From: a virus
Strand: one strand, 5' to 3'
Virus record (IMG/VR): IMGVR_UViG_3300030109_000489
Location: 1 to 26,133 of that record
Length of the DNA: 26,133 bases
The position numbers were made by a program, and so were the translations under genes. Below are positions 1 through 26,133 of this stretch, piece by piece (position 1 is the stretch's first letter; each line of letters begins with the position of its first letter). The notes beneath the pieces were generated by a model, which saw nothing but the letters and a program-made list of their open reading frames with translations, had not been told where the DNA came from and ran no database searches.

Positions 1-3000
1 ACATCTTCAACAGCAAATGATTTATTTTTACCGCCTACTCTAATATTAACAATACCCGCACCTGAAGTGTTAGCCGGTACTTGTCTTGCAAATCCAGCAT
101 CTACCATATCTCTTACAACACGGTTAGCGGCAACATTCTTCATACCTAATGTTACGGCTGCTCTTAAATTTTCACCTATACCTGTAATTGGATCAACTAT
201 ATCTTTATCTTCACTACCTTTAGCTTTTACAAAAATATTTTTACTTAAACTAAGTCCTTTAAAAATTTTTGGTCCCTTTAAATACTGTGTTCCGTCTTCA
301 TCAACTCCTATCATTCTATAGAATGGAAAATAATCAGAATTAGCTGTCCATTGTTGAGCAGTATTTTCATCTAAAACACCTGTATCAACTAAAAACTTAA
401 CTACGTGTTGATCATACCTATCGTAAGCATCAGACATAGCTTGTAATTCAGGATAATCTTTTAAAGCTTGAGCGGCATCTTTTCTGTCTTGTGCTGTAGT
501 TTTTACCGGTTTTCCCTCTGCATTAAAACGTGTTTCACGTTTAGCTATACGCACAGCTTGAAAAGCCCACATTAATTGAGGATTTTCAAAAGCTGGTGCT
601 AAAAATTCCATAGGAGGTGCAACCGGTTTACCGTCTATAGGTGATATAGTTTCTACACGAATATAACCCTTTTCATCATATACAAATATGCCTTCCATAA
701 AACCAGCTCTGAAAACTTCTCCGGCTCTGTCTGACATCATAAGGGCACTTACAGCAGAAACATCCGCAGTAAGCATTTCTTCTTTTTCTCCTCTGGCTCT
801 AGCTGCCGACATTTCAACAGTTTTAAATCTTGCGTATCTATCTACAAGTTGTTCTCTGATAGAGTCTTCTGTCGCATAACCTTTTGCTGTTTGTAAAATT
901 ATGCTACCCATACTAGGTGCATCATCAAACGTGTCTCTTATGGTTACTTTTTGTACTAATTTTTCTGTTTTATCGTCTAATTTTTTACCGGAGTTTTTAA
1001 ACGAGTATTTAGGGTTTAATCTATCTCTTGGTATAAAGGCTAGGGGTTCTTTTAATTCTTGTATGTAAGCCGTTCTAATGGCTTCAGGAGAGGCATTTAA
1101 ATTGAATTTAGGAGTAAGGTTTGCTCTTACAAGTCTTTCGTTGATGCCTTTAGCACCTTCGATAGCTTCTTGTAGGTTTACTACTTCTGAGGAAACAGCT
1201 TCTGGTTCATTAATTTGGCTGCTTTCTCGGAGTATTCGTCTGACTTGAGATTCTCTTCCTCCGAAAAGAGAGGTAGGGAGAATCCCAGAGTCTTGTCTGA
1301 TGATTTGTTGATTTTTTCCGCCATTGTTATCTATCCATGCAAAACCGTCTGTTACATATTTTACCCTATGAAACGTATCAATAGGAGTGTTTTTTGTTTC
1401 TTCTAAATATATAGGAGGTACTAACCTTCCAGTCTTAGCAAAACGTTCATACATTCTGCCTAATGCCACTCTGTAATCAACATCTACTAAAACAGTTTTT
1501 ACGTTATATCCATTCTCCTGTAATTCTTGTATTGTATTTTGTATTTTTTTCCTTTTAGAAAATCCTCCTACTCTGGGTAAGAGTATGTTTTTACCTTCCT
1601 TTAAAAACTCTTGTATTACATTGTCTGTTAACATTGAAGCTTCAGTATGAGTAGCATTAGCACCTATTCCTCCGTCATACTCTGGAATTATTGCTTTTGC
1701 ATCATCACTATCAGCTATGGCTAAATCATAATTTTTTGCTATTTCTTCTGCAAAGAAAGATTTACCAGACGCAGGTGGTCCCAATATTATGTAAGCTTGT
1801 CGACCATTAGGTATTGGATTTCTACTGTAACTTTCAGCTTTTTCTTTTAATACTTGTGTAGCTTTACGTACTCCTCTTATTTTTTTGCCATTTACTATAA
1901 ACTCTCTTTTATTCAAATAGTTATTATTTAAATACCACCTTTCGCCATATTGAGTTAAATACTTGTCTACTGTTGTTTGTAACTCAGACATTCTATTCAT
2001 ACCCTCTAAAGATGCCGGATGCTCGGAGAGTTCTAATATGTTAGTTCCCGCATTTAAAAGTTCTAATAAATCTTTTTTAGCATTTGCAAACGCTATATTA
2101 TCTAAAGGTGCAGACAACTTGAGTTTTTTTCCTAATGTTCTTTGCTCTAAATCCGCTTGTCCTTCCATATAGATAGGCTCGTTGTATCTACGCAAGTTAT
2201 CTTTTATTTGTTTACCTCTGCTACCTTTAGGAGTTAAAAACTCCATAGCAGACATTTTGTATTTAGGCTTTAAGGGACCTAAATTAACTGTTCTTCTTTT
2301 TATAGGTTGAGGAGGTGTTTCGGCTTGATACGATATATCTTGTTTAGGTGCTACAGCTAAAGCGTTTGTTCCTACTAATAGATAATCAGTAGAGGTAAGA
2401 GAAGGCTGTGCAAAAACAGGCGGTTGAAATCCAAACATAACATCTTTATCTAACATTACCTTTTCTTTTTCTATGGTGTATTCTGTAATTTGTTTGTTGT
2501 CACCAAAAATTTCAAAAGGTGTATCTACAAATTCATTAGCTATTTTGACAGCTTCTTCTAAATTATTAGTAACTACTGTAGATGTCCCTTTCGCTCTATC
2601 TCCTACTACATACACCGGAAATGTATCAGGATAATTTTTTTTCTTTAATGTGTTTTGGGTCATTTGAAACAGTTGTGATTGTGTTTCACCTATTTCATAA
2701 TTATCGACTGACCTTCCTAATCTTCTAATAACGTTACTATTGTTTATTATTTCTCTTGCAAATATATTCTGACTTATTTGATTTATATCATTTCCGTATT
2801 CTTCATTTCTGGCACCTAATATAAACTCTTGAGTTAAAGTTGTAGGTCTTTGTTGTACATTTGCTATTTTGTATTTTAAATTAGGAGCGTCCTGAAGGGG
2901 TCTCTTGAAGTCGGGAGATGCTCTATCAGCAGCATCAGGAAAGTATTCATTACCTATACTTGTTTCAGTAATTCTTAGAAGATCAGCAAACTCACTAGCC

Positions 3001-6000
3001 AATATTCTATTTGTTCTTACAACAGGTGTTTGTACTTCGTAATTTCTAGTAGGTGTTCCAAATTCGTCTACACCAATTACCTCAACAGATTGTTTGGTAT
3101 CACCATACCTCTCTCTGATTCCTATCTCTCCACCTATAAGCTTATCAAAAACATCTTCGTAAGTACGATAGCCTAATTCGTTCAAACCATTATTTATACT
3201 GGTAAAAAACTTTTTAGTTCTTTCCATTAAACTTCGAGGGTTACCAGATATTTTTTTGTTTTCTATGTAATCTTCAAACAATAAAGCATTAGCCTCTTCT
3301 AATAAATCTACAGAATTTAAGTTTTGATTATCTAAAGTATTGTACCTATACTCTACAGCTTCAAGATATGTAGGCATTCTGCCTAACTCTTCTTTTAAAA
3401 TATTTAACTGTTCTTTACCTAATACTTCTGTTGCTGTTTTATTATTTAATTCATTATTCCTAACATAGTTATCTAAATTTGCTCTTTCTTGTGGAGAAAA
3501 TAAATCTAAAAATACAGCAGCATGAAACAACTCATGTCCCATAGTCTTAGAAAGATTATCTAAAACTTCTTGTTCTGTTGTAGTGCCTTCTTTTGCTTTA
3601 GCAACACTCAAAAATACTTCTGACCAAACAGGATCAAATTGCCCTTCTGCATCAGGATTAGCTTGTCCTACTCTAGTTTGTATAGCTTTATCTAATCTTA
3701 CAGATACTTCAGGTAAATTCATCTTTTCAAAAGATGCACCTAATAAGTTACGAAACTTTTGTATATCTTTAAGTTCTTGTTTAACTTCGGGGTCGTTCTG
3801 TATTTTAGATTGCTCTACACTATTAAGTGTCCACTCACCATTAGCATTAAATTTATATTTACTGCCTTTTTGATCAACTATACCAGCAGAAACAAGGTCT
3901 TGACGTAACCTAGTAGCTACACGTTTGTCTGCTAAGTTATTAGGATTTAATCCTAAAGCTGTGACTATATTAGGTATGGTGGGTGCAGAGCCTGTATTTA
4001 AAACTTCTACAACTTGATTGTATTCGTTTAATGTATAAGGACGGGGTGAAAAGTCAGGTAAAGTAATAGTATTACTTTCATGTGCGGGTAAGGTGCTTAA
4101 AAAAGAATAAACTAATCTTTTTTGTTGACCATTAAGTTTATTGAAATTTGGTTGACCTGTTAAACGTAATGACAAAGATTTAAATCCATTTGATTTAGTA
4201 TCTATGTTTACATTTAATTTTTTGCCAAGATTTTCTAACATCTTGACTGTTACGTTAGTAGGAAGGTTTTTAGTGAATCCGGCTTCTTCGTAAAGTCTTT
4301 TTGCTTTTACATCTAATAATCTATTAATATCAGCATCAGGCAATACACCTTGCAAAGATAATACATCTATTCCGGTAGTATCTCTGCCTACAGCATTAAT
4401 TAATCTTTCATAAGCAGCAGAATTTACATTAGGAGATGCTTCAACATCTCTTATATCAACTTGTCCAAAATAAGGATTTAATACAGCATTACCTAACTTG
4501 TTTACAAAAGGATTTGTTTCAGAGTCTGCATTAAGACCCTGCATGGTAGCAAAATTACTTTTTAGTTCATTTGAGTAATTAGCCCCACTTATTAAATTTA
4601 AAACTCCTGACACTCCTACAGCTTCTTCTTGTGTGTTAAAAGTGTTTCCTATTACTTCTTGATAAGTATCTGTAATTGCAAAGCTGCCTTGTCCGTCAGG
4701 TTGCACAAAAAACTGATTAGGTGCTACAACATCACTATCTGTATCAGCAAATGTATTTATTTTTCCTTGATTTTCTTGGTAGGTCTTAAAAGCTTCATTA
4801 AAGAAAGGTATACCTGTATCGTAAATTTTATTGCCGTCTGCAATTTGCACTTCACCTGCTAATTCTCCTAATCCTACTTGTTTCGCTTGTTCTTTAATAA
4901 CTTGTATTTCTTCGGTGGTGCGTTTAAAGTTTTCTTCTTTAGCAGCCGTCATACCTTTTACTTCTTGGTTAGCACTTATACCTCCTAAAATAGCATCAGC
5001 AGGAACAAACACAGCTTCACCTAATGTTTCTGCAAGAACCTCACCGTAAGATATTCTTTCACCGTCTTCTAAAGTAGCTAACTGTGCAAAATATTCAGCA
5101 CCACCCGGCAATCCCATCTGCAAAGGTGTTTGTGCTGCTATATTATAACTTTGCCTTACATAAGGATTTACGGCAGTACCAGTAGGACCCTTAACAAAAG
5201 GTAAAACTGAACGATTAGCACTTGTTATAACAGACGGTGCAATAATTCTAGTTGCTATACCACCAGTTATACCATCAATAGTACCAATTATTGCTCCTCT
5301 TTTAAGACCAAAATCATGTGCTTCTTCTATTAACTTGTCATTAGACATAATAGTTTTTATAGATTCAGGATTAGTCATATCTAATCCTTGTGAACGTAAG
5401 TATTCATGCACAGAATGACTGTATTCTATAGAACCTGACATACTACCGGTGCCTGTTACTTGTCCAGCAATTTGTGGTATTGCACCAAATGTTCTTAAAG
5501 CAGCACCTATACCTAAACTTGTTCCTGCAATTAACGCTGAAGCTGAACCAGAACGACCAACTACATCACCTAAAAAGTCTAATTTTTGACTTAAATCTAA
5601 ATCATTAAAAAATGCACCTAATGCTCTAGGATTTTCACCGTGACCCTCTTGCATAACCCACTTAAAAGCGTCACTAAGTTCTACTTCATTTATAGATTTT
5701 TGTAATGTATCAAAAGTATTTAAAGTATCTTTATTAAACTGTATAAGTCCTTTTTCTGCTTTTTCATCAGTTTCGTACATTTGTGCAGAAATAGGCTGCC
5801 CCGGAAACATCTCTTGAATCTGTCCGGATTTTCCCGTCCCATACAGCATAATATGCAAGTCTTGTTTTCTTTTTACTTCATCAGGACTAAGAGTTTGATT
5901 TTTTTCTTTGTCTAAAAGTGTGTTGTATTCATTATTAACTTGTTCTTCTTCTAATAAAGACTCATATACTTTCTGTTTATCTATATTAGTTAAAGCTTCT

Positions 6001-6278
6001 TGTTCAAAACCAGCTACAAATTGTTGACCTATTGAATCACCTTCGCTACGTGCTTCTTCAGGACGTAATTTAGGTGCAATAGATGCGTAAGGATTTTCTA
6101 TAGTAAGAGGGGGTTCTTCTGTGGTTTCTGTTACAACAGGTGTGGTCGCTACAGTTTCTTCTTCAACTGTAGGAGGTATGAATTTTGTTTCAAAACTTTG
6201 TATTCGTTCTTGTATTTCTTCTTCAGTTAAATCATCTGGCAAAGATAAAAACGATCCGTCAGACAGCAAATAGTCCAT
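1..6278 (-). CDS. giant phage polyvalent protein, 3' end outside window (zincin + zeta-like kinase)
   Basis: The minus-strand frame opened by the ATG at 6278-6276 stays open to the window edge, giving at least 2,092 residues. GTAGG about 8 nt upstream is a plausible RBS, and the start lies 1 nt after the previous stop. Visible parts: an acidic, Pro-rich N-terminus (1-100); Gly/Ala-rich hydrophobic stretches near 235-280 and 325-352; a zinc-protease motif HELFH at 915-919; and a Walker A loop GPPASGKS at 1500-1507. The latter is followed by ADSDDAKAIIPEYDGGIG, strongly like zeta-toxin/polynucleotide-kinase-type domains. The stretch from about 1840 to the edge resembles domains associated with large polyvalent phage proteins. 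Such proteins are thought to be packaged and injected with DNA to counter host functions. That role is inferred here from architecture and from its place beside virion genes. Confidence 0.85.
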   Translation of the reverse strand, partial: MDYLLSDGSFLSLPDDLTEEEIQERIQSFETKFIPPTVEEETVATTPVVTETTEEPPLTIENPYASIAPKLRPEEARSEGDSIGQQFVAGFEQEALTNIDKQKVYESLLEEEQVNNEYNTLLDKEKNQTLSPDEVKRKQDLHIMLYGTGKSGQIQEMFPGQPISAQMYETDEKAEKGLIQFNKDTLNTFDTLQKSINEVELSDAFKWVMQEGHGENPRALGAFFNDLDLSQKLDFLGDVVGRSGSASALIAGTSLGIGAALRTFGAIPQIAGQVTGTGSMSGSIEYSHSVHEYLRSQGLDMTNPESIKTIMSNDKLIEEAHDFGLKRGAIIGTIDGITGGIATRIIAPSVITSANRSVLPFVKGPTGTAVNPYVRQSYNIAAQTPLQMGLPGGAEYFAQLATLEDGERISYGEVLAETLGEAVFVPADAILGGISANQEVKGMTAAKEENFKRTTEEIQVIKEQAKQVGLGELAGEVQIADGNKIYDTGIPFFNEAFKTYQENQGKINTFADTDSDVVAPNQFFVQPDGQGSFAITDTYQEVIGNTFNTQEEAVGVSGVLNLISGANYSNELKSNFATMQGLNADSETNPFVNKLGNAVLNPYFGQVDIRDVEASPNVNSAAYERLINAVGRDTTGIDVLSLQGVLPDADINRLLDVKAKRLYEEAGFTKNLPTNVTVKMLENLGKKLNVNIDTKSNGFKSLSLRLTGQPNFNKLNGQQKRLVYSFLSTLPAHESNTITLPDFSPRPYTLNEYNQVVEVLNTGSAPTIPNIVTALGLNPNNLADKRVATRLRQDLVSAGIVDQKGSKYKFNANGEWTLNSVEQSKIQNDPEVKQELKDIQKFRNLLGASFEKMNLPEVSVRLDKAIQTRVGQANPDAEGQFDPVWSEVFLSVAKAKEGTTTEQEVLDNLSKTMGHELFHAAVFLDLFSPQERANLDNYVRNNELNNKTATEVLGKEQLNILKEELGRMPTYLEAVEYRYNTLDNQNLNSVDLLEEANALLFEDYIENKKISGNPRSLMERTKKFFTSINNGLNELGYRTYEDVFDKLIGGEIGIRERYGDTKQSVEVIGVDEFGTPTRNYEVQTPVVRTNRILASEFADLLRITETSIGNEYFPDAADRASPDFKRPLQDAPNLKYKIANVQQRPTTLTQEFILGARNEEYGNDINQISQNIFAREIINNSNVIRRLGRSVDNYEIGETQSQLFQMTQNTLKKKNYPDTFPVYVVGDRAKGTSTVVTNNLEEAVKIANEFVDTPFEIFGDNKQITEYTIEKEKVMLDKDVMFGFQPPVFAQPSLTSTDYLLVGTNALAVAPKQDISYQAETPPQPIKRRTVNLGPLKPKYKMSAMEFLTPKGSRGKQIKDNLRRYNEPIYMEGQADLEQRTLGKKLKLSAPLDNIAFANAKKDLLELLNAGTNILELSEHPASLEGMNRMSELQTTVDKYLTQYGERWYLNNNYLNKREFIVNGKKIRGVRKATQVLKEKAESYSRNPIPNGRQAYIILGPPASGKSFFAEEIAKNYDLAIADSDDAKAIIPEYDGGIGANATHTEASMLTDNVIQEFLKEGKNILLPRVGGFSKRKKIQNTIQELQENGYNVKTVLVDVDYRVALGRMYERFAKTGRLVPPIYLEETKNTPIDTFHRVKYVTDGFAWIDNNGGKNQQIIRQDSGILPTSLFGGRESQVRRILRESSQINEPEAVSSEVVNLQEAIEGAKGINERLVRANLTPKFNLNASPEAIRTAYIQELKEPLAFIPRDRLNPKYSFKNSGKKLDDKTEKLVQKVTIRDTFDDAPSMGSIILQTAKGYATEDSIREQLVDRYARFKTVEMSAARARGEKEEMLTADVSAVSALMMSDRAGEVFRAGFMEGIFVYDEKGYIRVETISPIDGKPVAPPMEFLAPAFENPQLMWAFQAVRIAKRETRFNAEGKPVKTTAQDRKDAAQALKDYPELQAMSDAYDRYDQHVVKFLVDTGVLDENTAQQWTANSDYFPFYRMIGVDEDGTQYLKGPKIFKGLSLSKNIFVKAKGSEDKDIVDPITGIGENLRAAVTLGMKNVAANRVVRDMVDAGFARQVPANTSGAGIVNIRVGGKNKSFAVED

Positions 6279-12585: not shown

Positions 12586-14447
12586 TATTTTTTACCGTCC
12601 TGTCTCATTTCTAATCTAAATGAACCTAATCTCCATCCATAACCTAAACCAGAACTTTGAAACCTTAATATTGCTTGTCTTGTTCTTGCTCTTATAAAAG
12701 CTTGTTGTGTTGTAGAATTTATAGAACTTGTAGATAAAGTTGTAGGGGTATCAAGCGGATAATCTACACCTTTTACTAAAACGTCTAATGTATCATCAGT
12801 TCCTGTTTGTCCTTTAAAAGTTAAATCCGGAATAATTTTAGAAACAAACATATAGTGTTCACCGTCTGGCTCTAAATCAAAATCAGAAGTTTCTACAAAA
12901 GCATTCATAATAGAACCATCAGCATCATTTCCTACCTCATGGTTATACAAATAATTATTATTAGTAGTGTCGTTTTTGCTTGCTGCAACTGGGAAATCTA
13001 AAGAATTTGCTTCTATCCAAGCTGTTCTAGTAAAACCATCATCGGTTGTGCCTATACTCCAAGTATTTTCTAAATAATTAAAAATTACATATCTGTTTAA
13101 TTCACTTGAATCCGCAGATGGGTAAAACCACATAATTTCATTTTGATCTACATTTGACGTACCAAAAATTTTAAAAGACTGACCTAAATTAATATCAGAA
13201 AATATATAGTCTCTTACTGCACACGGTAAAGTTTGAACACTACCTGCATAAATATAAAAACTTCCCCTATCCATAAAAAACACTTTGTTATCAGCATTTA
13301 TAGCTGCATTCGGTGAAATCATGGAGGGACCTTGCATAATTTCAGAAAATGTAAATATAAAAGGAGCACCACTATATTGCATAGAATGCAATCCATTGTC
13401 TGTCCAAATTAAAATTTCTTGTCTAGTTCTTAGGGCACCAATTATAGTTGATCCACTTGATAATCTAGTGCCTCCGGCTGTATTAGTAGAAGTTGGTGTC
13501 CAATCTATTGAACTTTCTTGATCAGACCATCTGACAAATAATGGATCAGAAGTTGTAGAACCTATTGGATTAGCACCAAAACAAATTATATGTCTATCAA
13601 TATCAGAAACCATTATTTGTAATACTGCTGTTGGTGGATTACTAGCTCCTGATAAATCAGAAAATGACACAGCACGAGTAGATGTGCCTCCACTTTCGTC
13701 CCATAAAAATATTCCGCCACCTCTTACACAAGTTATAAGATCATCACCAAAATTATCTTGCGACCATAATCTTAATTGATTGACTGAATCAATAGCACTT
13801 GTTGATCCCCAACCTCCTGCACCCCAAGTATCTATACCCCATCCTGTTCCTTTTACAAAAGTATCTAGTCCTACATTTATTTCATAAGAACCATCTACAC
13901 CAGAACCTCCATTACCTGTGTCGCTAGAGTTTGCAGTAACTGTAGTTCCTGAAGTATCTTTAGCAGTTATTTCATAAGTATTAGCAGTCAGAACTTTATC
14001 TATTATGTATTCTTGATTTAAAACAGCAGCAGTTACGTTACCACCTAAAGAAACAGCTTGGGCAAAAGTTACAGTATCTCCTGTTACTGCTCCATGTGAT
14101 GAATCTGTTACTACGACTGTTGATGAACCATCAGTTGCAGCAAAAGTTATAGAATTAGTTGATGTTTTTCTTATAGGTGTAATATTGTTAAAAGTAGTTC
14201 CTTCTTTAACATATAGTTTTGTATGCGTTCCTACACCTATGTAATCTGTTTGCCCTTGATCTCTATATGAATGCAAACTTCTACAAGTACCTAAAAAACT
14301 ACTACTTGATGTTTTTTCCCATCCACCTATTTTTTCAGGTCTACCGCTTCTAAATCTTACTTTATCAGCATTAAAATAGCCTCCTTCTTCAGAATAAGAA
14401 GTACCTTCTCTATTTATGCCGGGACGAAAAACATATTTTTTTAACAT
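12585..14447 (-). CDS. phage tail/stabilization-type protein (beta-rich, 620 aa)
   Basis: 620 residues, beta-rich throughout. The N-terminus carries RPGINREGTSYSEEGGYF followed by an Arg-rich KVRFRSGRPEKIGGWEK segment. I associate this signature with podovirus proteins annotated as packaged-DNA stabilization or tail-nozzle proteins. It is rich in Ser, Thr, Asn and Gly with aromatic-Gly turns, which suits a propeller-like fold. It forms a TAATG junction with the upstream lysozyme stop, coupling a virion gene directly to the lysis cassette. Identification is by N-terminal signature and context. The nozzle versus stabilization label should be regarded as provisional. Confidence 0.7.
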   Translation of the reverse strand: MLKKYVFRPGINREGTSYSEEGGYFNADKVRFRSGRPEKIGGWEKTSSSSFLGTCRSLHSYRDQGQTDYIGVGTHTKLYVKEGTTFNNITPIRKTSTNSITFAATDGSSTVVVTDSSHGAVTGDTVTFAQAVSLGGNVTAAVLNQEYIIDKVLTANTYEITAKDTSGTTVTANSSDTGNGGSGVDGSYEINVGLDTFVKGTGWGIDTWGAGGWGSTSAIDSVNQLRLWSQDNFGDDLITCVRGGGIFLWDESGGTSTRAVSFSDLSGASNPPTAVLQIMVSDIDRHIICFGANPIGSTTSDPLFVRWSDQESSIDWTPTSTNTAGGTRLSSGSTIIGALRTRQEILIWTDNGLHSMQYSGAPFIFTFSEIMQGPSMISPNAAINADNKVFFMDRGSFYIYAGSVQTLPCAVRDYIFSDINLGQSFKIFGTSNVDQNEIMWFYPSADSSELNRYVIFNYLENTWSIGTTDDGFTRTAWIEANSLDFPVAASKNDTTNNNYLYNHEVGNDADGSIMNAFVETSDFDLEPDGEHYMFVSKIIPDLTFKGQTGTDDTLDVLVKGVDYPLDTPTTLSTSSINSTTQQAFIRARTRQAILRFQSSGLGYGWRLGSFRLEMRQDGKK

Positions 14448-14887
14448 TATTCTTCTAAAACTCTATCTCTTAATCTTACTGCTCTAGCACCTACTTGATT
14501 AGCCCATTTACTATCCATCATTTCTTCTGATGCTGTTTCAAAGTCTCCTGCTTTCATAGCTGCTAAAAATTTTTTAAAGTTTTTTAATCTAGGTAATCCT
14601 AAATTAAATGCCATATTAGCCATAACTCTTTGCTTGTTATCATCTAAATCTTTCCACCAAGGCAAATTTTTATCTAATTCTTTACACACAATATCTATAT
14701 CAGCGTTCAAACATTCATATATTCTTTCTTCTGATATAGGAGTTCCCATAGGCAAACCCCACTCTTTATCTTTTTCTGTCAATAAATGTCCTACACCCAA
14801 AGTAGGATAACCTAAATGATCTCTATATATTTCATACATAAAGCCTTCATCCATTATTATTTCTTTTACTAATTTATCTCTATCCAT
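14447..14887 (-). CDS. endolysin, GH24 (T4-type) lysozyme
   Basis: 146 residues, a complete single-domain muramidase. The catalytic triad spacing of T4 lysozyme (Glu, +9 Asp, +6 Thr) is present as E14, D23 and T29, followed by LGVGHLL. It should cleave the MurNAc-GlcNAc bond of peptidoglycan. There is no signal peptide or transmembrane anchor, so export depends on a holin, which is encoded immediately upstream. The leader between holin and lysozyme (14888-14954) can fold so that a purine-rich stretch before the ATG is partly paired. AAGG, 11 nt from the ATG, is the likely, slightly distant RBS. Confidence 0.95.
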   Translation of the reverse strand: MDRDKLVKEIIMDEGFMYEIYRDHLGYPTLGVGHLLTEKDKEWGLPMGTPISEERIYECLNADIDIVCKELDKNLPWWKDLDDNKQRVMANMAFNLGLPRLKNFKKFLAAMKAGDFETASEEMMDSKWANQVGARAVRLRDRVLEE

Positions 14888-14954: not shown

Positions 14955-15425
14955 CTAATCTTGTTTCTGTGATGCACCGAAATAAAAACTTATAACAGCA
15001 CTAGCCAAACCACCTAAATAACCTAAAACTAAATTAATTAACGCTTCGCTATTTTGTTCTGGTGGTTGTAAGGTTACTAAAAATATATATGCTAAAAAAC
15101 CACCTACTGTAGCTATACCCATAATTCTAGCTGTCCAATCTTTACCAAATTTACCTCTAGCATCTTGTTTATCAGCAGTTTCTAGTTTAAATACATCTAC
15201 TTCTAATTCTTTCATCTGAACCTCAAAAGCTTGTTCTGCTTTTTTTAATTCTAACATTTGCTCCGGAGATGCCGACTCAATAGCTTTTTCTATAGACTTA
15301 GAATCATTTTTACATCCTAAAACTTCAGAAATCATATTGGCAGCCATACCGCCCATAGGTCCACCTAATGCAGTACCTAAAGTTGGTGCTACTGCACCTA
15401 CAACACTTTTTAACAAATCTTTCAT
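14955..15425 (-). CDS. holin, 3-TM gene-transfer-agent type
   Basis: 156 residues from the ATG at 15425, preceded by GGGAG at 5-nt spacing. An in-frame ATG at 15437 lacks a good RBS. An N-terminal Gly-rich APTLGTALGGPMGGMAANMI segment is followed by a charged helix (SPEQMLELKKAEQAFEVQ), then ...TARIMGIATVGGF... and a second hydrophobic segment at about 128-150. This arrangement matches the 3TM holin family described for gene-transfer-agent release. It lies directly upstream of the lysozyme and starts 3 nt after the cyclase stop, so lysis is translationally linked to the signalling module. The role in permeabilising the inner membrane is inferred from family and position. Confidence 0.75.
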   Translation of the reverse strand: MKDLLKSVVGAVAPTLGTALGGPMGGMAANMISEVLGCKNDSKSIEKAIESASPEQMLELKKAEQAFEVQMKELEVDVFKLETADKQDARGKFGKDWTARIMGIATVGGFLAYIFLVTLQPPEQNSEALINLVLGYLGGLASAVISFYFGASQKQD

Positions 15426-15427
15426 TT

Positions 15428-17197
15428 CTACTCCCATGTATAAACTTGTAAGGGTTTTGCTTTACCTTTAACCTCTATAGGGTCTAATAATTTCATAGCA
15501 AATTTACTATGTTTTGCAGTTTCCTCACCTATTAAAACACCAACACCCGCAACTTTTGTACTAGATTCTAATCTAGCAGCAACATTGCAAGGGTCACCAA
15601 TTAAACTAAATGCAAACCTGTCTGTAGCACCAAAATTTCCTGCTATACAAACTCCACTATTAACACCTATGCCTATAGCTACTTCAGGTATACCTTCTTC
15701 TTTAAACTTTAAGTTAAGCTTATCTATATTACTTTCTATTTCTTTAGCGGCTTGTAATGCTAAATTATGATGATCATCTTGTGGAATTATAGTATTCCAA
15801 TGAAACATACCTGCATCGCCTATAAATTTATCTGTGCATCCAAAATATTTATTAGCTGCTTCTACTTGTGCATCTAATACTGCATTCATAATATACGTAA
15901 CCATTTCTGGTTCTACTGACTCTGATAAGCTAGTAAATCCTCTAAGGTCTGTAAATATAATAGAACAATCTACTCTTTTACCATTTACCTGACAAAGTTC
16001 AGGATTATCTTGCAATTTTTTGACCATTCTTGGATCAAGATATTTACCAAACTGTCCTTTAATTTGTTGCCTTAATTTGTATTGTTCTCTAAATCTAAGA
16101 TAGAAAGCAGTTGAGGCACTTATAAACTGAGATAACAAAGACCAAGTAACATCTATTAATAAACCATTTTGTATTAAATAGTAACCACTTAAAGCAGTTC
16201 CCATTATTACTAAGCTAGAAGCAGATATTCCGAAAGTAATTCCTAGAACATTAATCAAACTTATAACTAAACAAAGTGATATAAATGTAAACAATAATTC
16301 TACTAACAAAGAATAATCAGGAATATAAGGACTATTTTCTATTAATATAGATTCTGCTAAAGCTGCTTGTATTTTATGAGGTTCTAAAAGTTTATTATTA
16401 GGAACTGCAATTTGTGGCATTATTCCTTTTGCTGTAAATCCTACAAAAACAAATTTATTTTCTACATCCATTTCAGCAAGATTGGTTTGTGGTGTATCAA
16501 CCCAACTTATCCATTTTCTACCAAGGCTATCTACCTTAACAGGAGGCAAGCCCCTAACTCTTATTTCTTCTATACCATTATCATTAGTTTTAATAACATA
16601 GGTATCTGCACCAGCTAATACCTTTAAAACTTCAGTTCCGTAAGATGCTACCCAACCGTCATTAGTTCTCATTAATAACGGCAGTCTTCTCACTAAATTA
16701 TCAACTTCTGTTCTTGCTACTGCTAAACCTTGACTTGAATTTTGTTTTAAAACTTTTATATTTTGTATAACGCCTTGAGCCTTAATACCACCTATATCAT
16801 TTCCTAATATGACTGTGCCTGTTGTAGGTGGATATTCTCCTTTTCCCTCAAACATTGCTAATACACTAGGAGAAAAAGACAACGCTTCTGAAAATTCAAA
16901 GTCACCTCCAAATCTATCAGGCTGTGGAAAAGCTATAACCCATCCAACTCCTATAGCACCTTTACGTAAAAGATTTATTTGTATTTGTGCTAGTGTTTGT
17001 CTTGATAAAGGATAACCTCCTTCTCTAGCTATATCTTCTTCTGTGATATTTAAAATCGTAAAATAATCTGAAGGTTCTTGTTGTGTAACAAAAGCATCAA
17101 AAGTTTTTAATTTTAATATTTGATAAGCTGAAGGTTGAAAAATATATACGCTACATAAAGCAAAAATTAATAATAAATAAATATTAAGATTTTTCAT
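15428..17197 (-). CDS. CHASE2-domain class III adenylate cyclase
   Basis: 589 residues with an N-terminal membrane segment (5-22). A periplasmic CHASE2 domain follows (about 30-285), including GYPLSRQTLAQIQINLLRKG and the FVGFTAKG motif. Three membrane segments (about 294-365) lead to a linker with FGKYLDPRMVKKL and a class III cyclase domain (about 405-589). Catalytic residues are intact: metal Asp D417 (FTDLRGF) and D461 (IGDA), adenine-specifying K457 and D535 (IGDPCN), and transition-state N538 and R542. This predicts ATP to cAMP rather than cGMP. The start overlaps the FecR gene stop (ATGA) with AGGG upstream, and the stop is followed at once by the holin. A sensor cyclase in a phage lysis region is very unusual. 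Confidence 0.97.
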   Translation of the reverse strand: MKNLNIYLLLIFALCSVYIFQPSAYQILKLKTFDAFVTQQEPSDYFTILNITEEDIAREGGYPLSRQTLAQIQINLLRKGAIGVGWVIAFPQPDRFGGDFEFSEALSFSPSVLAMFEGKGEYPPTTGTVILGNDIGGIKAQGVIQNIKVLKQNSSQGLAVARTEVDNLVRRLPLLMRTNDGWVASYGTEVLKVLAGADTYVIKTNDNGIEEIRVRGLPPVKVDSLGRKWISWVDTPQTNLAEMDVENKFVFVGFTAKGIMPQIAVPNNKLLEPHKIQAALAESILIENSPYIPDYSLLVELLFTFISLCLVISLINVLGITFGISASSLVIMGTALSGYYLIQNGLLIDVTWSLLSQFISASTAFYLRFREQYKLRQQIKGQFGKYLDPRMVKKLQDNPELCQVNGKRVDCSIIFTDLRGFTSLSESVEPEMVTYIMNAVLDAQVEAANKYFGCTDKFIGDAGMFHWNTIIPQDDHHNLALQAAKEIESNIDKLNLKFKEEGIPEVAIGIGVNSGVCIAGNFGATDRFAFSLIGDPCNVAARLESSTKVAGVGVLIGEETAKHSKFAMKLLDPIEVKGKAKPLQVYTWE

Positions 17198-18309
17198 CCT
17201 GAACCCTGTTTAACATTTATTGTTGTACTAGAGCCACCGTTAACTTTTATGGTATTAGCAACACCGTCTTGCATTAAGTAAATAGTATAGGCATCAGAAC
17301 CATCTACATTTAGCTTTACACTTTGACTTACAGATCGTGTGAAAGTTATATTTCTGCCAGAAACTATTGTTGTGATCTGTGTATCTTTATCCTGTCCTAT
17401 CTCTGTTCCAACTATACGAATACCTACACCACCTTGTTTTAGAGCATCTTCTTCTTTTGATATAGCTAGTGCGTCTATGACATTTAATAAGTCCTCTAAG
17501 AAATTAGTAGCCAACATATCTATGTCTAGTTCAGTAAATTCTAGTTCTTCTTCTGCATCTAAAAAATCTTCTGCTAGATAATCAATATCCAGATCATCAA
17601 ACTCTAAATAATCTGCTGTAGTTTGTGTTTGTGTTTCTTCTTGTTGTTCTTTTATTTCTTCTGGTGGATTTACGATAAGTAAATTATCTATAAATTCTAA
17701 AGATATATCTAAGGTTATAGGTTTAGTAGGATTACTTTCGTAAACAGATACAGTTGTAGCTTGATAAGGTTTATTTAAAGTTACACTACCTAAACCTGTT
17801 GATACTATTATTTCACCGCTAGATATACCGTTTTCATCTGGTAATAAAATTACAAGACTTCTACCTAACTCATCTACTGTACAGGTAAAATCCGTCCCAC
17901 GAATTGCAATTTGGGCTGTTGGTGTACGTATAGATATATTGCTCTTGTTGTTAAATTTACCTGTTATAAAACGTGCTGTACCACTAGCAAACTTTAATGC
18001 CATCTTTGATTTTGATGGATCAGGATCGTAAATGTACTCGTCTATAACAAGTTTAGAATGTTCTGTAAGTTTTACCGTAGAAGCATCTTCAAAAGTTATT
18101 GCCACTCTGCCCGTTTCTGTACGGACATCATCCATTTGTTGTATGTTGAACTCTAATTCAGCATCATACGGCACATCTCTGAGAACTTGTGCATTTCCTC
18201 TGAGTTCTGATACTAAACCTATGTTAGCAGACGAATGAAGTAGTTGCGTCTGACTGAGTAACACAGACAGTACCACTAGAGCCCGCAGATGTAATTTTAA
18301 GCCAGTCAT
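17194..18309 (-). CDS. FecR-domain periplasmic protein with curlin-like C-terminus
   Basis: 371 residues. A signal peptide covers about 1-28 (basic n-region, hydrophobic core, cleavage near HSSA/N). The FecR domain (about 30-190) shows GLVSELRGNAQVLRD, DDVRTETGRVAITFEDAST, and the hallmark ISIRTPTAQIAIRGTDF. A Gln/Glu-rich linker leads to an acidic tandem repeat: LEFDDLDIDYLAEDFLD (235-251) and LEFTELDIDMLATNFLE (256-272), period 21. The last part, IYLMQDGVANTIKVNGG then INVKQGSG, resembles curlin repeats. FecR-domain proteins are often encoded next to CHASE2 cyclases in bacteria, as here (4-nt overlap). Its first 28 codons overlap the upstream curlin-like gene. Likely a periplasmic partner or ligand-sensing protein for the cyclase. 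Confidence 0.88.
   Translation of the reverse strand: MTGLKLHLRALVVLSVLLSQTQLLHSSANIGLVSELRGNAQVLRDVPYDAELEFNIQQMDDVRTETGRVAITFEDASTVKLTEHSKLVIDEYIYDPDPSKSKMALKFASGTARFITGKFNNKSNISIRTPTAQIAIRGTDFTCTVDELGRSLVILLPDENGISSGEIIVSTGLGSVTLNKPYQATTVSVYESNPTKPITLDISLEFIDNLLIVNPPEEIKEQQEETQTQTTADYLEFDDLDIDYLAEDFLDAEEELEFTELDIDMLATNFLEDLLNVIDALAISKEEDALKQGGVGIRIVGTEIGQDKDTQITTIVSGRNITFTRSVSQSVKLNVDGSDAYTIYLMQDGVANTIKVNGGSSTTINVKQGSG
17494..17607 (-). repeat. acidic tandem repeat within FecR-like protein
   Basis: Two copies of a 17-residue acidic motif (L-E-F-x-x-L-D-I-D-x-L-A-x-x-F-L) at a 21-residue period, residues 235-272 of the FecR-domain protein. It reads as an internal duplication and may form amphipathic helices or bind cations. 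Role unknown. Confidence 0.7.
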
Positions 18310-18967
18310 TATCAGATGTTGACTCCTGATCTATATTAAAAGTCCTACTACCTCCGACATGAGTTAGATGAAAATATCCACCTGCATATCCATCACCATC
18401 ATAAGTTACCGTATTATCGTTACCGTCTATGTTCATATAATTAGTAGCACCATCTACATCTATAGATGCAGTTATACTGTTGCTACCACCTTGTATAGTC
18501 CAATCTAAGTCTAGGTTAGCTGCTAGTGCTGTCATAGCGTGATTGAGTGTCATTGTGTTCGTATTACCAGTGACTTGTACGTTTACGTTAGAACCATCGG
18601 CACCTGTAGCATTTGTTTCGTCTGTACTCATATTAAACGTATTTGTGTCGCCTATAAAAGAAAAGTAACCCGTATAGTTGTCTGCCCATATATCGCCTAA
18701 GAATTTATTCGTGTTACCTTTTTGTAAGACATCCAATGTCATAGTTCCGCCATCTAAATCTAAAGCGGTCATAGAACCTGCTGCTGCATCAGAACCACCA
18801 ATAATGTTACCACTACCGCCTACTTGTTCTATATCTAAATTAGACGTTGCTCCTGATTGATCTATAAATATTTCATTATCAGCCCCGTATAGTGTTGATA
18901 CACTCATCATCACAACTAGGTTCATTAATGTCAGTATTTTTATTTTGTTTCCAATAGCCTTTTTCAT
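18224..18967 (-). CDS. curlin-repeat (CsgA/B-like) secreted protein
   Basis: 247 residues. A signal peptide spans 1-29 (MKKAIGNKIKILTLMNLVVM..., cleavage likely YGA/DNE). The rest is a run of roughly eight degenerate repeats of the curlin type, I-x-Q-x-G-x-x-N-x-x-x-I, for example IFIDQSGATSNLDIEQVGG, VLQKGNTNKF, VTGNTNTMTL and IQGGSNSITASI. It is rich in Asn, Thr, Gly and Asp, as expected of an extracellular beta-solenoid amyloid. It ends with two Cys (C235, C247), unusual for curlins. A strong SD (AGAGGAGGG) precedes the start, the best in the module, suggesting high expression. csgG and csgF lie directly upstream, so CsgG is the probable export pore. CsgA-like versus CsgB-like cannot be decided. 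Confidence 0.75.
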   Translation of the reverse strand: MKKAIGNKIKILTLMNLVVMMSVSTLYGADNEIFIDQSGATSNLDIEQVGGSGNIIGGSDAAAGSMTALDLDGGTMTLDVLQKGNTNKFLGDIWADNYTGYFSFIGDTNTFNMSTDETNATGADGSNVNVQVTGNTNTMTLNHAMTALAANLDLDWTIQGGSNSITASIDVDGATNYMNIDGNDNTVTYDGDGYAGGYFHLTHVGGSRTFNIDQESTSDNDWLKITSAGSSGTVCVTQSDATTSFVC

Positions 18968-19736
18968 AGCCCTCCTCTATTGTTTGTAAAACTGCTTTCT
19001 CTACTGCCATTTGTAAAGCTATATTTATTGATTCATTTTCTACTATACCGCTTTCTATTTCAACTAACTCGGTATTATTTGCATAAAATCTAAACACATC
19101 TGAAGATACAGATGCACTTAATATTGTTTTAGTAACTAATACTTCTATTAATATTTTACCTGTTAAAACAGATACAGTTCGTAAAGATATAGTTACAGAA
19201 TCTTGTCTATATTCTTTAGAGCCACCTATACCTAAATATCTAGCACCAGCACCACCTGATTTAATATTTGTTTCGTAACCTACAACACCACCTTCCATTA
19301 ATAAACCAGCAAACATTAAAGGTTTTACCTTTTGTTTTTCTTCAAAGTTTTCTCTAGTTGTACGTATTATCTGACGTTCTTTTGTAAGATTATCTAAACC
19401 GGTGCGTTCTACAACATCAAAAACACCAGAATGTTGTAATGCTCTTATAAGATAAGCATCGGGTGCTTGAGTTATTGCGGTACTAAAACTAGCATATTGA
19501 CTATTACTTCTTCGCTGTCCGGTATCATCTTTAAAAGAACTTGGATATACAGCTACTACAGGTTTTCGTATAGGAAGAGGCACCTCTGCTAAATCAGTTA
19601 ATAAAGAACTAACTTCGGCTGATTCTATATGTCTTATAGGTGGTATTCCGTTATCTAATGGATCAACAATCAACGCACAACTAGAAAGTAAAAGAACCAA
19701 GAGGTACAGTAATTTCTGTTGTATTGCCTTCTTCAT
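18879..19736 (-). CDS. csgG: CsgG family outer-membrane curli secretion lipoprotein
   Basis: 285 residues (E. coli CsgG has 277). A lipoprotein signal peptide ends in the lipobox LSSC with acylated Cys C20. Family signatures run in order: KPVVAVYPSSFKDDTGQRRS (58-77), FSTAITQAPDAYLIRAL (84-100), ERTGLDNLTKERQIIR (110-125), GGAGARYLGIGGSKEYRQD (161-179), LTGKILIEVLVTKTILS (191-207), and the C-terminal NESINIALQMAVEKAV...GYW. It should form the nonameric outer-membrane channel that exports curlins. The start has no SD, and its first 19 codons overlap csgF, so translation is probably coupled. The residues matching the E. coli constriction differ (S79, S83, F84 opposite Y51, N55, F56, ungapped alignment). 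Confidence 0.97.
   Translation of the reverse strand: MKKAIQQKLLYLLVLLLSSCALIVDPLDNGIPPIRHIESAEVSSLLTDLAEVPLPIRKPVVAVYPSSFKDDTGQRRSNSQYASFSTAITQAPDAYLIRALQHSGVFDVVERTGLDNLTKERQIIRTTRENFEEKQKVKPLMFAGLLMEGGVVGYETNIKSGGAGARYLGIGGSKEYRQDSVTISLRTVSVLTGKILIEVLVTKTILSASVSSDVFRFYANNTELVEIESGIVENESINIALQMAVEKAVLQTIEEGYEKGYWKQNKNTDINEPSCDDECINTIRG
18970..18978 (-). promoter_or_regulatory. strong Shine-Dalgarno of the curlin-like gene
   Basis: AGAGGAGGG, 2 nt before the ATG at 18967, with the GAGG core about 6 nt away. It lies inside the 3' end of csgG, where coding constraints would otherwise act. The csgG, csgF and fecR-like starts lack a well-placed SD, so this gene is probably translated most. It also decides the start at 18967 over the internal Met codons. 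Confidence 0.7.
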
Positions 19737-20148
19737 CTGTAATTATTAATGTTACTTTATCGTCTTCTACTCTATATTCTATTGTATTGCCTTCTAATTC
19801 AAGAACACCAAAATCTGACGCAGTTTCTCCAAATAAACTATCTACCAACTGCCTTGATAACTGTGCATAAATACGACTTTCTAAATTACGAATAAATCTA
19901 GCTAAAGTTGTGTTGTCAGCCTCTCTTTCTAAATCTTCTACATAGGCTTTGATTTCTTCACGAATAGCTTCTTTTCTATTAAATTCTTGATTTTCTATAG
20001 TCAGGTAGTGACTAGATGTGCCAACACCAGAAAAACTTGGGTTTTTAAATTTATGGGTCATTTCATCTGCTTGCACAGATAAAACTACAAACATAAAAAT
20101 TATCATGGAAGCTATCAGCAACACTTCATCAGGACGTTTAGAAGGCAT
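19681..20148 (-). CDS. csgF: CsgF-like curli assembly protein
   Basis: 155 residues from the ATG at 20148. The signal peptide (about 1-27, ...VVLSVQA/DE) is followed by MTHKFKNPSFSGVGTSSHYL, matching the conserved mature CsgF start (F-x-N-P-x-F-x-G, then a Gln/Asn-containing segment) that inserts into the CsgG channel in E. coli. A charged helical middle follows, and the C-terminus (VTLIITDEEGNTTEITVPLG) matches the CsgF beta tail. Longer in-frame starts up to 20271 exist, but they would put the signal peptide deep inside and overlap the 65-residue upstream gene. The 20148 start follows that gene's stop by 5 nt. Expected to work with the adjacent CsgG in anchoring or nucleating exported curlin at the surface. 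Confidence 0.88.
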   Translation of the reverse strand: MPSKRPDEVLLIASMIIFMFVVLSVQADEMTHKFKNPSFSGVGTSSHYLTIENQEFNRKEAIREEIKAYVEDLEREADNTTLARFIRNLESRIYAQLSRQLVDSLFGETASDFGVLELEGNTIEYRVEDDKVTLIITDEEGNTTEITVPLGSFTF

Positions 20149-20153
20149 AATTT

Positions 20154-20351
20154 TTATAGATAAGTAATTACTAAATCTACACTTTTTACTGTATCTATCC
20201 AATAAAATGTTATATAGCCTAGCCAACTGAATGCAATTAAAAAGCAACATACTACTGTGTATCTTTTCCAATTTGCTAGTAATAAATCTATTGAGATATC
20301 AATAAAATTAAATACCTTTTGTCTTTTAGATAGTTTCTTTTTTCTTGGCAT
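20154..20351 (-). CDS. small single-span membrane protein (65 aa)
   Basis: 65 residues with a very basic N-terminus (MPRKKKLSKRQK) and a hydrophobic segment around 33-52 containing Trp, Cys and Tyr. A perfect AAGGAG lies about 5 nt upstream of the ATG, so it is well translated. It ends 5 nt before csgF. The topology is probably N-in by the positive-inside rule. It is not CsgE by length or sequence. It could be a small lysis, regulatory or export helper; I do not recognise a family. Confidence 0.65.
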   Translation of the reverse strand: MPRKKKLSKRQKVFNFIDISIDLLLANWKRYTVVCCFLIAFSWLGYITFYWIDTVKSVDLVITYL

Positions 20352-20360
20352 AGCTGCTCC

Positions 20361-20699
20361 TTAATTAAATGCCCAAACAAAAACTGCTAATAATCCAATC
20401 AAAGATAACAAAATAAATGCAATAGAAGTTATTTCTATAGTCTTACCTAATTTATTTAGATATATTGTATCTCGTTCAGGATTAAACCTTTCGTCCTCAT
20501 AAATATACTTATCACGCGGAAAAGGTCTTTTGGGTATAGGTTCAAATATTACGTTGTCTATTGAGACTAACTGTTCTTCTTCTATTCTTTTTACTTCTGC
20601 CTCTTGGTACTCCGTCCATTTTTTACCGTACTTTTCATACATAATATTATTAAAGTCAGCGTCTAAAAATGCTTGATCTTCAGTCTTTTCTTTGGTCAT
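20361..20699 (-). CDS. C-terminally anchored small membrane protein (112 aa)
   Basis: 112 residues: a long charged, Glu/Lys/Tyr-rich soluble part (1-88, with FEPIPKRPFPRDKYIYEDER in the middle) and a single C-terminal membrane segment (about 91-111, ending AVFVWAFN). The tail-anchor design puts the bulk of the protein in the cytoplasm. AAGG lies 9 nt before the start. It overlaps the 3' end of the upstream membrane gene by 20 nt and stops 9 nt before the next start. No family is recognised; the neighbourhood is a run of three small membrane proteins before the curli genes. Confidence 0.6.
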   Translation of the reverse strand: MTKEKTEDQAFLDADFNNIMYEKYGKKWTEYQEAEVKRIEEEQLVSIDNVIFEPIPKRPFPRDKYIYEDERFNPERDTIYLNKLGKTIEITSIAFILLSLIGLLAVFVWAFN

Positions 20700-21030
20700 C
20701 TCTATCTGCCTTTGCTATTTTATTACTGTCTATTAACTGTGGTACACCAAGTATTGTTTTTATAAGTGTGTCTTGTCTAATAATTTCATTGTCTAAACTT
20801 CTTATGCGATCTATAAGAGCTACTAAGATGCCGTGTTGTGAATCTAATTTAGTTCCAAGTCTATCTTCCATTTGAGATATTTGATCGGCTACTTTATCAT
20901 CTAGCACATCTAGTTTAGTTTCCATGCCGTCTATTATTCTATTTATAAGCTTCCAAATAAAAATACCTAGTCCTAGAGCAGCAGCTATTGGAAACCCAAC
21001 TTCTGCTATAAATAAAGTAATATCTTCCAT
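20680..21030 (-). CDS. small membrane protein with TM plus coiled coil (116 aa)
   Basis: 116 residues. One N-terminal membrane segment (about 5-33, ITLFIAEVGFPIAAALGLGI) is followed by an amphipathic coiled-coil region (about 36-90, heptad Leu/Ile with METKLDVLDDKVADQIS) and a charged tail. The layout resembles small phage holin-like or hemolysin-XhlA-like proteins, but no signature is decisive. Its start forms a TAATG junction with the SNase stop, so translation is coupled. A possible second holin or lysis regulator, at low certainty. Confidence 0.6.
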   Translation of the reverse strand: MEDITLFIAEVGFPIAAALGLGIFIWKLINRIIDGMETKLDVLDDKVADQISQMEDRLGTKLDSQHGILVALIDRIRSLDNEIIRQDTLIKTILGVPQLIDSNKIAKADRDDQRKD

Positions 21031-24368: not shown

Positions 24369-26133
24369 TTAATGTAGTTTCTTTTTAATTTCATCAATCT
24401 CTGTTGATAATTCTTGTATTGCTTTGACAAGTATAGTTTCTAAATTAGTTGCTCCTATACGTTGTCTGCCATCTACTTCATCTTCTTGCCAAAGATCAAA
24501 TCCATCTTTAATTTCATCGTGTGCATCTATAACAGCTTTTACTTCTTGTGCTATAAATCCATGATTAATTTTATCATTCATAGTTCTTGTTTCTGAATCT
24601 TCTCTATAAGCATTTAGTTCTGGAGATATATCTTTCTCTTTTTTCCATCTAAAAGTTACTGGTCTTAAATCGTTTATAAAAGACAAACCAGCCTCTTGGT
24701 CTTGTATATCTTCTTTTAATCTTATATCAGAAGGAGCGGTTATTGTAGTAGCACCAAAAGCTATATTAGAATCATTAGTTCCATCACCAAAAGTAAAGTT
24801 ACTGTTACCTACACAAGTTATACCTTGTCCCATAACAATTTGGTTATTGGCTCCAACTGCACTAAAAGCATGATTATTACCTACCGCAACATTTTGTGAA
24901 CCTGTGGTTAAGGCATCACCTGTTGCACGACCTATAAGTACATTATCATCACCTGTAGTTATTTGACTTCCAGCATTACCACCTACACAAACATTTCTGT
25001 CAGCAGAAGTTGCAACATTTAGTGCTATGTCGCCTATAGCTACGTTATCTGCTCCAGTTAATTGTGAACCAGCAGCAGCACCTATAGCCACGTTAGAGTT
25101 ACCACAAGCAGCACTTAAAGCGTTATAACCAATAGCTACATTTTGTACTGAACTTCCAATCGCATCACCAGCAAAACTACCCATTACAACATTTAATGTA
25201 CCAGTGCTTATGTTAGAACCAGCATCTTGTCCAATCGCTACATTGTTATTACCATTACAGTTTGTTCCAGCACTATCCCCTATAAACACGCATTGTGCTC
25301 CTGTTGTAGTGTTAGAACCAGCATAAGAACCTATAGCTACGTTAGTTGATGCTGTTGTGAGGTCCTCTAAGGCTTGAAGTCCTACTGCTGTACATCTTGT
25401 TCCAGTTGTAACACTTGCAAGAGCAGACTTTCCTACTGCTGTGTTTAAGCCTCCTGTTGTCATTGCTCCTAGTGCTGATCGACCTACTGCTGTGCTGCTA
25501 GATGCTGTTGTTGAGGCATCCATTGCTTGTGAACCGACAGCAGTGTTATCTGCTCCTGTGGTGTTTGAGAGTAAAGCATTTCTACCAACTCCAGTATTAT
25601 CAGATGCTGTTGTATTTGCCTGTAAAGCATTAACACCAACTCCTGTGTTGTTAGTGCCTGTGGTATTTACCAATAATACAGCATAACCAACTCCTGTGTT
25701 GTCACCTGCTCCTACATCTGCTGTTAGTGTGCTTTTACCAATAGCTACATTATTACTGCCCGTAGTGTTTTGGGCTAAAGCAAGTTCACCCAAAGCTGTG
25801 TTTGCTTGTCCTGTAGTGTTTGCTTTTAAAGCATCTTTACCAACTGCTACATTATTCGCTCCATTATTTTGTTCTAATGCTGCAACTCCTACAGCCGTGC
25901 TATTACTCCCAGTCGTATTTACTGTAAGTGCGTCTCTACCCACAGCAGTATTAGCCGACCCTGTGGTATTGGCATCTAAAGCATTATTGCCCACCGCAAC
26001 ATTATTGTCTCCTGTGGTGTTTGCTGTTAAGGCTTGATGCCCAAAAGCAGAATTGTTTGATGCTGTCGTATTAGCTAACAAAGCATTTTTACCAAAAGCA
26101 TTGTTAGATGCACCAGTTGTATTCGCTCCTAAT
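24369..26133 (-). CDS. tail fibre with S74 chaperone C-terminus, 5' end outside window
   Basis: At least 587 residues are visible; the frame is open through the right edge, so the true start lies outside. Most of the protein is a tandem 17-residue repeat of the type A-N-T-T-G-x-x-N-x-A-V-G-x-x-A-L-x, like left-handed beta-roll heads of trimeric adhesins. The last 120 residues form an intramolecular chaperone: SDIRLKEDIQDQEAGLSFIN with the conserved S-D-x-R-L-K, then HGFIAQEVK and a C-terminal coiled coil. Family knowledge predicts self-cleavage before that Ser (codon 24731-24729) after trimerisation. Likely a host-receptor-binding fibre. Confidence 0.93.
   Translation of the reverse strand, partial: LGANTTGASNNAFGKNALLANTTASNNSAFGHQALTANTTGDNNVAVGNNALDANTTGSANTAVGRDALTVNTTGSNSTAVGVAALEQNNGANNVAVGKDALKANTTGQANTALGELALAQNTTGSNNVAIGKSTLTADVGAGDNTGVGYAVLLVNTTGTNNTGVGVNALQANTTASDNTGVGRNALLSNTTGADNTAVGSQAMDASTTASSSTAVGRSALGAMTTGGLNTAVGKSALASVTTGTRCTAVGLQALEDLTTASTNVAIGSYAGSNTTTGAQCVFIGDSAGTNCNGNNNVAIGQDAGSNISTGTLNVVMGSFAGDAIGSSVQNVAIGYNALSAACGNSNVAIGAAAGSQLTGADNVAIGDIALNVATSADRNVCVGGNAGSQITTGDDNVLIGRATGDALTTGSQNVAVGNNHAFSAVGANNQIVMGQGITCVGNSNFTFGDGTNDSNIAFGATTITAPSDIRLKEDIQDQEAGLSFINDLRPVTFRWKKEKDISPELNAYREDSETRTMNDKINHGFIAQEVKAVIDAHDEIKDGFDLWQEDEVDGRQRIGATNLETILVKAIQELSTEIDEIKKKLH
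25320..26133 (-). repeat. tandem 51-nt (17-residue) fibre repeats
   Basis: Within the fibre gene, roughly sixteen imperfect 51-nt units encode N-T-T-G-x-x-N-x-A-V-G-x-x-A-L. Units beyond about 25320 toward the 3' end continue with more drift and Cys-containing variants. The array continues past the window edge. Such arrays can gain or lose units by recombination. Confidence 0.8.

Follow-up and report, generated by a model that had tools for sequence, protein, structure and literature searches.

The window analysed here is the whole of a 26,133-base linear record of a marine phage (IMGVR_UViG_3300030109_000489; GC 32-38%). On its minus strand, reading downward from position 20148, it carries csgF, csgG, a curlin-like gene, a FecR-domain gene and a gene for a CHASE2 sensor with a nucleotide cyclase, followed by genes for a small membrane protein and a lysozyme. 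We consider it probable, from sequence and predicted structure, that the first five genes form a curli-type (type VIII) export module which the phage carries together with a read-out of its own, in which the curlin-like protein would be exported, the FecR/CHASE2 pair would sense, and a cyclic-nucleotide level would be set. The headline gene set is not new and has been in print since 2022, when a pelagiphage type VIII secretion cluster was published (Wittmers et al. 2022, PMC9599517) that shares the order csgF-csgG-csgA/B-FecR-adenylate cyclase, lacks csgE and csgD, and is found in marine podoviruses and myoviruses. The new element of this analysis is a coupling between FecR alleles and the cyclase, an allele-level link in phages of which we found no earlier account in the open-licence literature, and it is in the sensing half of the module that the remaining interest lies. 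A preliminary description of positions 18224-20148 had csgF, csgG and the curlin-like gene right in place and kind, and had left out the FecR and CHASE2-cyclase genes of the same run.

Pore genes and the predicted export substrate

The two pore genes were confirmed, as the preliminary description had claimed. The CsgF-like protein (19681-20148, minus strand, 155 aa) has a signal peptide followed by an N-P-x-F motif, and scores 66 bits against a Pfam cut-off of 25.8 (PF10614, E 4.8e-18; PHROG match 8.6e-44). The CsgG-like outer-membrane pore lipoprotein (18879-19736, minus strand, 285 aa) scores 173 bits against a cut-off of 20.8 (PF03783, E 5.8e-51), and its residues 7-267 align to the solved E. 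coli-type CsgG (E 4e-46). Residues 17-20 form a lipobox-like LSSC, and its cysteine, a putative acylation site, does not vary among 19/19 CsgG proteins from diverse phages. The absence of csgE, csgC and csgD, which that description had stated, was likewise confirmed, in Pfam scans of the 27 open reading frames (ORFs) of this 26 kb fragment. Separately, a 1.5 kb record labelled Salmonella phage (OR851715.1, H7) has a CsgG match of 41.5% identity over 77% of the query; it may be host DNA.

The third gene (18224-18967, minus strand) encodes a protein of 247 aa that begins with a Lys-rich hydrophobic leader. In a single full-length comparison it aligned to the protein at the same locus of phage Melnitz (30% identity, E 9e-18), a counterpart that is itself over the Pfam curlin cut-off with 26.0 bits. 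When a profile of 39 relatives was compared with all PDB sequences, the solved CsgA 8c50 was the only significant match (E 1.1e-4). The predicted structure is a solenoid-like all-beta repeat fold (pLDDT 82, pTM 0.79), and a second-look structural comparison, in which a fold family missing from the results is not taken as excluded, again gave CsgA 8c50 as the best match (Z 18.1 over 196 residues), but with an rmsd of 8.6. Across 42 relatives we counted a strand-end motif (hydrophobic-x-hydrophobic-x-Gln) 181 times, compared with 40.8 +- 6.1 in shuffled sequences, and it closes 41 of the 42 proteins. By these comparisons the product is a diverged, curlin-like protein and, by its own Pfam score, not a member of the Pfam curlin family. 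Cysteines at residues 235 and 247 are invariant in 33/33 podophage relatives and absent from the myophage rows shown; the pair is possibly a disulphide end cap.

The curlin-like gene was never missing beside phage csgG. On loci found by CsgG alone and having at least 800 nt downstream, it comes after csgG in 47/47 loci of podophages and 45/45 of myophages; left out of these counts were duplicates (20 and 17), short loci (12 and 18) and one cut-off CsgG. Among contigs of metagenome-assembled genomes with enough sequence it was present in 9/10, the miss (L293) having a partial CsgG. Selection on the protein is strong, the median ratio of nonsynonymous to synonymous substitution rates (dN/dS) being about 0.05, next to 0.07 for csgG, 0.05 for csgF and 0.03 for the FecR domain. 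Its ribosome-binding site in the window, at 18971-18976 (minus strand, 3 nt before the ATG), matches AGGAGG at six of six positions, and the other module genes match at only 2-4 of 6. Matches of 5-6 out of 6 were seen in 30 of 43 distinct upstream regions of the curlin-like gene, versus 2/68 for csgF, 0/34 for csgG, 0/24 for fecR and 1/52 for the cyclase. A translation signal this strong relative to the pore genes is what would be expected of an exported subunit.

Since universal co-carriage, purifying selection and the strongest ribosome-binding site all fall on the same gene, an exported substrate is favoured over a module that is only a pore. The preliminary description had argued that carrying a substrate with the pore speaks against a pore-only role, and that argument, right in its direction, has gained these three supports; the secreted fibre that it went on to suggest stays a prediction. 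The same evidence bears on the idea, put forward for Melnitz (PMC9004378), that the phage has turned CsgG and CsgF to a new use, the timing of lysis by a pinholin-like or secretin-like pore, with the curlin-like protein as a plug or relic. A lysozyme and a small membrane protein do lie beside the module, and in two relatives (L090 and L092) genes that we read as inner and outer spanins directly follow fecR, a placement that connects the module with the lysis region. However, a plug or relic sits poorly with a gene that is never lost, so strongly constrained and so strongly signalled for translation; moreover the phage owns a lysozyme, and from general knowledge an outer-membrane CsgG would not be expected to depolarise the inner membrane. 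We therefore regard a lysis-timing pore as unlikely.

The FecR-domain protein and the CHASE2-cyclase

The fourth gene (17194-18309, minus strand) encodes a predicted exported protein of 371 aa, made up of a leader that starts near residue 1, a FecR domain at about residues 46-190, an acidic linker (residues 191-310, mostly pLDDT <50) and a curlin-like C-terminus. The domain scores 49.7 bits against a cut-off of 24 (PF04773, E 5.3e-13) and is present in 34/34 relatives. The whole model is of low confidence and its fold was used for the FecR domain only, which Foldseek matched, at a probability of 1.0, to 4m0h and to the signalling domain of PupR (6ovk). We also considered the protein as an iron anti-sigma regulator and rejected this, because the FecR-domain part directly follows the leader with no cytoplasmic anti-sigma N-terminus, and no sigma factor was matched in Pfam scans of the window ORFs. 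The label of iron-dependent regulator given to FecR in the published cluster (PMC9599517) is thus unsupported for the window protein, which lacks the cytoplasmic anti-sigma part and is here instead an exported FecR-domain protein paired with CHASE2. At its C-terminus (17197-17316, minus strand) lie two curlin-type strand motifs 21 residues apart; the protein ends in such a motif in 37/38 relatives, and the motif count is 80, versus 21.7 +- 4.1 in shuffles. On this count we tentatively assign FecR a curlin-like tail.

The fifth gene (15428-17197, minus strand) encodes a protein of 589 aa with a CHASE2 sensor (PF05226, 9.5e-23) and a class III nucleotide cyclase domain (PF00211, 4.3e-15), aligning to the solved cyclase CyaB with E 1e-24. 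Residues D417, K457, D461 and R542 are present in 97/97 cyclase sequences and N538 in 95/97; we take these, from what is known of class III cyclases, to be the two metal-binding aspartates, the base-recognising lysine, and the arginine and asparagine that act on the transition state. The lysine would favour ATP as substrate. Judged by these residues the cyclase is probably active. Between two cyclase types CHASE2 is 80% identical and the cyclase domain 47%: the output domain has been swapped, with the catalytic residues kept.

In podophages the FecR domain comes in two alleles that share about 62% identity, and the cyclase follows the allele: it is present in 113/113 allele-A loci and in 0/26 allele-B loci. 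These counts cover loci with at least 1.5 kb of downstream sequence and include near-copies; two distant myophages with the cyclase (L082 and L083) were set aside, L082 standing at about 46-47% from both alleles. As distinct loci, 81 have the cyclase (Melnitz included) and 21 do not, out of 102. Mapped on the CsgG tree, the state of the cyclase changed at least 6 times on supported branches and 8 times in all, and in independent pairs the allele was concordant with the cyclase in 6/6 (p 0.031). A single exchanged stretch does not easily explain this link, since in L140 and L087 the FecR domains are 61% identical and the stretch between the FecR domain and the cyclase is 95-96% identical. CHASE2 was found elsewhere in the record in 0/11 of the cyclase-less allele-B records, compared with 4/4 positive allele-A control records, and no replacement sensor was seen in the cyclase-less loci. 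Gene linkage thus shows FecR and the CHASE2 cyclase to be functionally paired.

The pair has counterparts in bacteria. In Alphaproteobacteria a FecR-domain ORF lay within about 4 kb of CHASE2 in 22/34 windows and in 0/20 controls, and the two were adjacent on the same strand in 10 windows. The 34 CHASE2 windows were picked by hand, non-randomly, most of them being among the stronger matches listed whose contigs were long enough, and the 20 controls were taken farther along the same contigs. In Campylobacterota CHASE2 cyclases are reported to cluster with FecR-domain proteins (PMC9239204), and there, as in the Burkholderia BiofilmReg operon (PMC5192318), an exported FecR-domain protein stands beside a CHASE2 kinase or cyclase; unlike in the window, curli genes are not named in the relevant parts of these two papers. 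In Sinorhizobium, CyaD1 without CHASE2 is described as making cAMP constitutively, CHASE2 restraining the cyclase (PMC5498481). Together the bacterial neighbourhoods and the published cases indicate that FecR/CHASE2 is a sensor pair in its own right, which has here been linked with curli genes.

Such pairs without curli also allow FecR and the cyclase to be passengers, a signalling pair unrelated to export and placed beside the curli genes by chance of acquisition. This would agree with the lack of a FecR ORF in the five bacterial CsgF neighbourhoods examined (0/5, L338-L342) and with the absence of the cyclase from 21 of the distinct loci. Against it, FecR is always with the module (36/36 podophage and 36/36 myophage loci), even where the cyclase is absent. 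For this figure we used only loci that CsgG had found and that continue for at least 2000 nt downstream, loci L084-L202 having nearly all been found by FecR itself. The gene is also embedded in the module by overlap. Within the window csgF and csgG overlap by 56 nt, csgG and the curlin-like gene by 89 nt (18879-18967), and the curlin-like gene and fecR by 86 nt (18224-18309), so that the curlin-like gene and fecR each begin, with the part coding for the leader, inside the end of the preceding gene; the last overlap is 86 nt in 164/169 relatives, the remaining 5 having 89 nt. Finally, the end of FecR resembles the end of a curlin. Chance neighbourhood thus seems to us improbable.

Relatives, hosts and flanking genes

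Two cultured phages, HTVC008M of Pelagibacter and Melnitz of Methylophilales, have the same gene order as the window, with curlins labelled in GenBank, and their proteins are 29-46% identical to those of the window. They differ in a longer module, with a second curlin between fecR and the cyclase. In HTVC008M this second curlin (L082:8546-9868, L203) combines a PA14 domain with three curlin repeats. PA14 domains are often sugar-binding, and the combination would suit an adhesive fibre. The published text on Melnitz describes it as having neither csgA nor csgB (PMC9004378), contrary to its GenBank record, which labels two curlin-repeat proteins. Compared with E. coli CsgA-G, the window shares CsgG, CsgF and a repeat-rich substrate whose export is predicted; it differs in that no CsgE, CsgC, CsgD or second minor subunit was found, with FecR and the cyclase present instead.

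A neighbouring structural protein is 31-39% identical to proteins of phages of Roseobacter, Pelagibacter (HTVC023P, HTVC027P) and cyanobacteria and of a record labelled Gammaproteobacteria, and a Pelagibacter host is suggested by published relatives only. In 147 Pelagibacterales genomes a class III cyclase was found once, on the contig that also carries the phage-type csgG and module of the genome in question; the group being nearly devoid of this enzyme, the cyclic-nucleotide signal would be foreign to the cell if the host is one of the Pelagibacterales. CsgF was over the cut-off in 6/385 Alphaproteobacteria. We also looked for a bacterial source of the cluster and rejected the candidates, as a scan of genome contigs gave 11 loci of which at least most are apparently phage contigs in mixed-organism bins.

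Directly after the module lies a small membrane protein (14955-15437, minus strand) with no Pfam match and a PHROG of unknown function, which may be holin-like by our own reading; a protein of this type adjoins fecR in several cyclase-less relatives. The lysozyme (endolysin) follows at 14447-14887 on the minus strand (PF00959, 2.6e-13; PHROG endolysin, 3e-21). Before csgF, three small membrane or coiled-coil proteins (20154-21030, minus strand) gave no histidine-kinase domain in Pfam and PHROG scans. A histidine kinase has been described before csgF (Wittmers et al. 2022, PMC9599517), and this candidate was rejected for our loci after no HisKA or HATPase match was obtained in 10 small upstream proteins of the window and its relatives, the published gene calls themselves not being compared. 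Farther away on the minus strand, a protein of 2092 aa whose reading frame is still open where the window ends (3-6278) contains, at residues 1494-1641, a Zeta-toxin-like kinase domain (7.8e-15), an odd setting for it, inside a giant protein near structural genes. At the other end, 24369-26132 (minus strand) encodes many short Asn/Gly-rich repeats and a C-terminal endosialidase-type chaperone (Peptidase_S74), resembling a self-cleaving tail fibre.

Proposed mechanism and its meaning

In the mechanism that we propose, the infected cell would build CsgG:CsgF pores into its outer membrane and produce a large amount of the curlin-like beta-solenoid protein, which would leave through the pore. FecR, as a second exported protein, would stay in the periplasm and might use either the curlin-like tail or the FecR domain to sense the substrate or the state of the pore. 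It would then control CHASE2 of the inner-membrane cyclase, a pairing shown by gene linkage, for which we infer the direction and the ligand, and the state of export would thereby set the cyclic-nucleotide level. The exported protein would most plausibly alter the cell surface, leading to sibling aggregation or to the exclusion of rival phages, as published authors have likewise suggested; csgF and csgG were discussed together with a 'sibling capture' idea in PMC7029224. A more specific version, which we hold only as a tentative possibility, is that FecR monitors with its curlin-like end the substrate reaching CsgG and reports through CHASE2, so that class III signalling is brought into hosts normally without it and export becomes a sensed checkpoint of infection.

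Several observations weigh against an export module with a read-out. Secretion, fibre formation and cyclase activity are all predicted. The curlin-like protein alone falls below the Pfam Curlin_rpt cut-off (PF07012; E 1.7, 9.1 bits versus 20.7), and among 33 close relatives only 4 gave a match at E<=10, the best being 0.029. The preliminary description had called it a curlin-repeat protein with a signal peptide: the leader, the Melnitz homology and the CsgA profile match uphold this, and the score does not; under the condition of a significant curlin-repeat score that the description itself had set, read literally, it would count against the curlin reading. Foldseek gave no significant fold match for the model (best E 0.66). 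E. coli CsgA carries an N-terminal CsgG-targeting segment after its leader; no equivalent was found behind the leader of the curlin-like protein, and the CsgE gate of a complete E. coli-type system is absent from the window ORFs, so that recognition of the substrate must differ from that of E. coli. The curlin-like tail of FecR was matched by Pfam Curlin_rpt in only 1/34 proteins, with a profile-comparison probability of 2% and low model confidence. The cyclase is under the loosest selection of the module (dN/dS 0.13-0.20) and is dispensable, as its absence from 21/102 distinct loci indicates. No receptor for its product is evident, a cNMP-binding domain being present in 0/11 phage records and in 11/147 Pelagibacterales genomes. 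Finally, the authors of the Melnitz study reported no clumping in culture (PMC9004378).

A pore that takes up large nutrients or cofactors during infection and is merely gated by the curlin-like protein, as suggested by Zaragoza-Solas 2020 and Wittmers 2022, would fit the lack of a CsgE gate, but we consider it very unlikely, as it explains neither CsgF nor why the curlin-like gene has so strong a translation signal, and FecR, having no cytoplasmic anti-sigma part ahead of its leader, is not a TonB-receptor regulator.

If the export module works as proposed, abundant ocean phages make free-living cells produce an exported amyloid-like protein and monitor its export, which, if true, would matter at sea for how cells aggregate, for superinfection and for recombination. 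A gene cluster that has been published without an explanation becomes testable through the coupling of FecR and CHASE2, because this coupling says which parts to combine.

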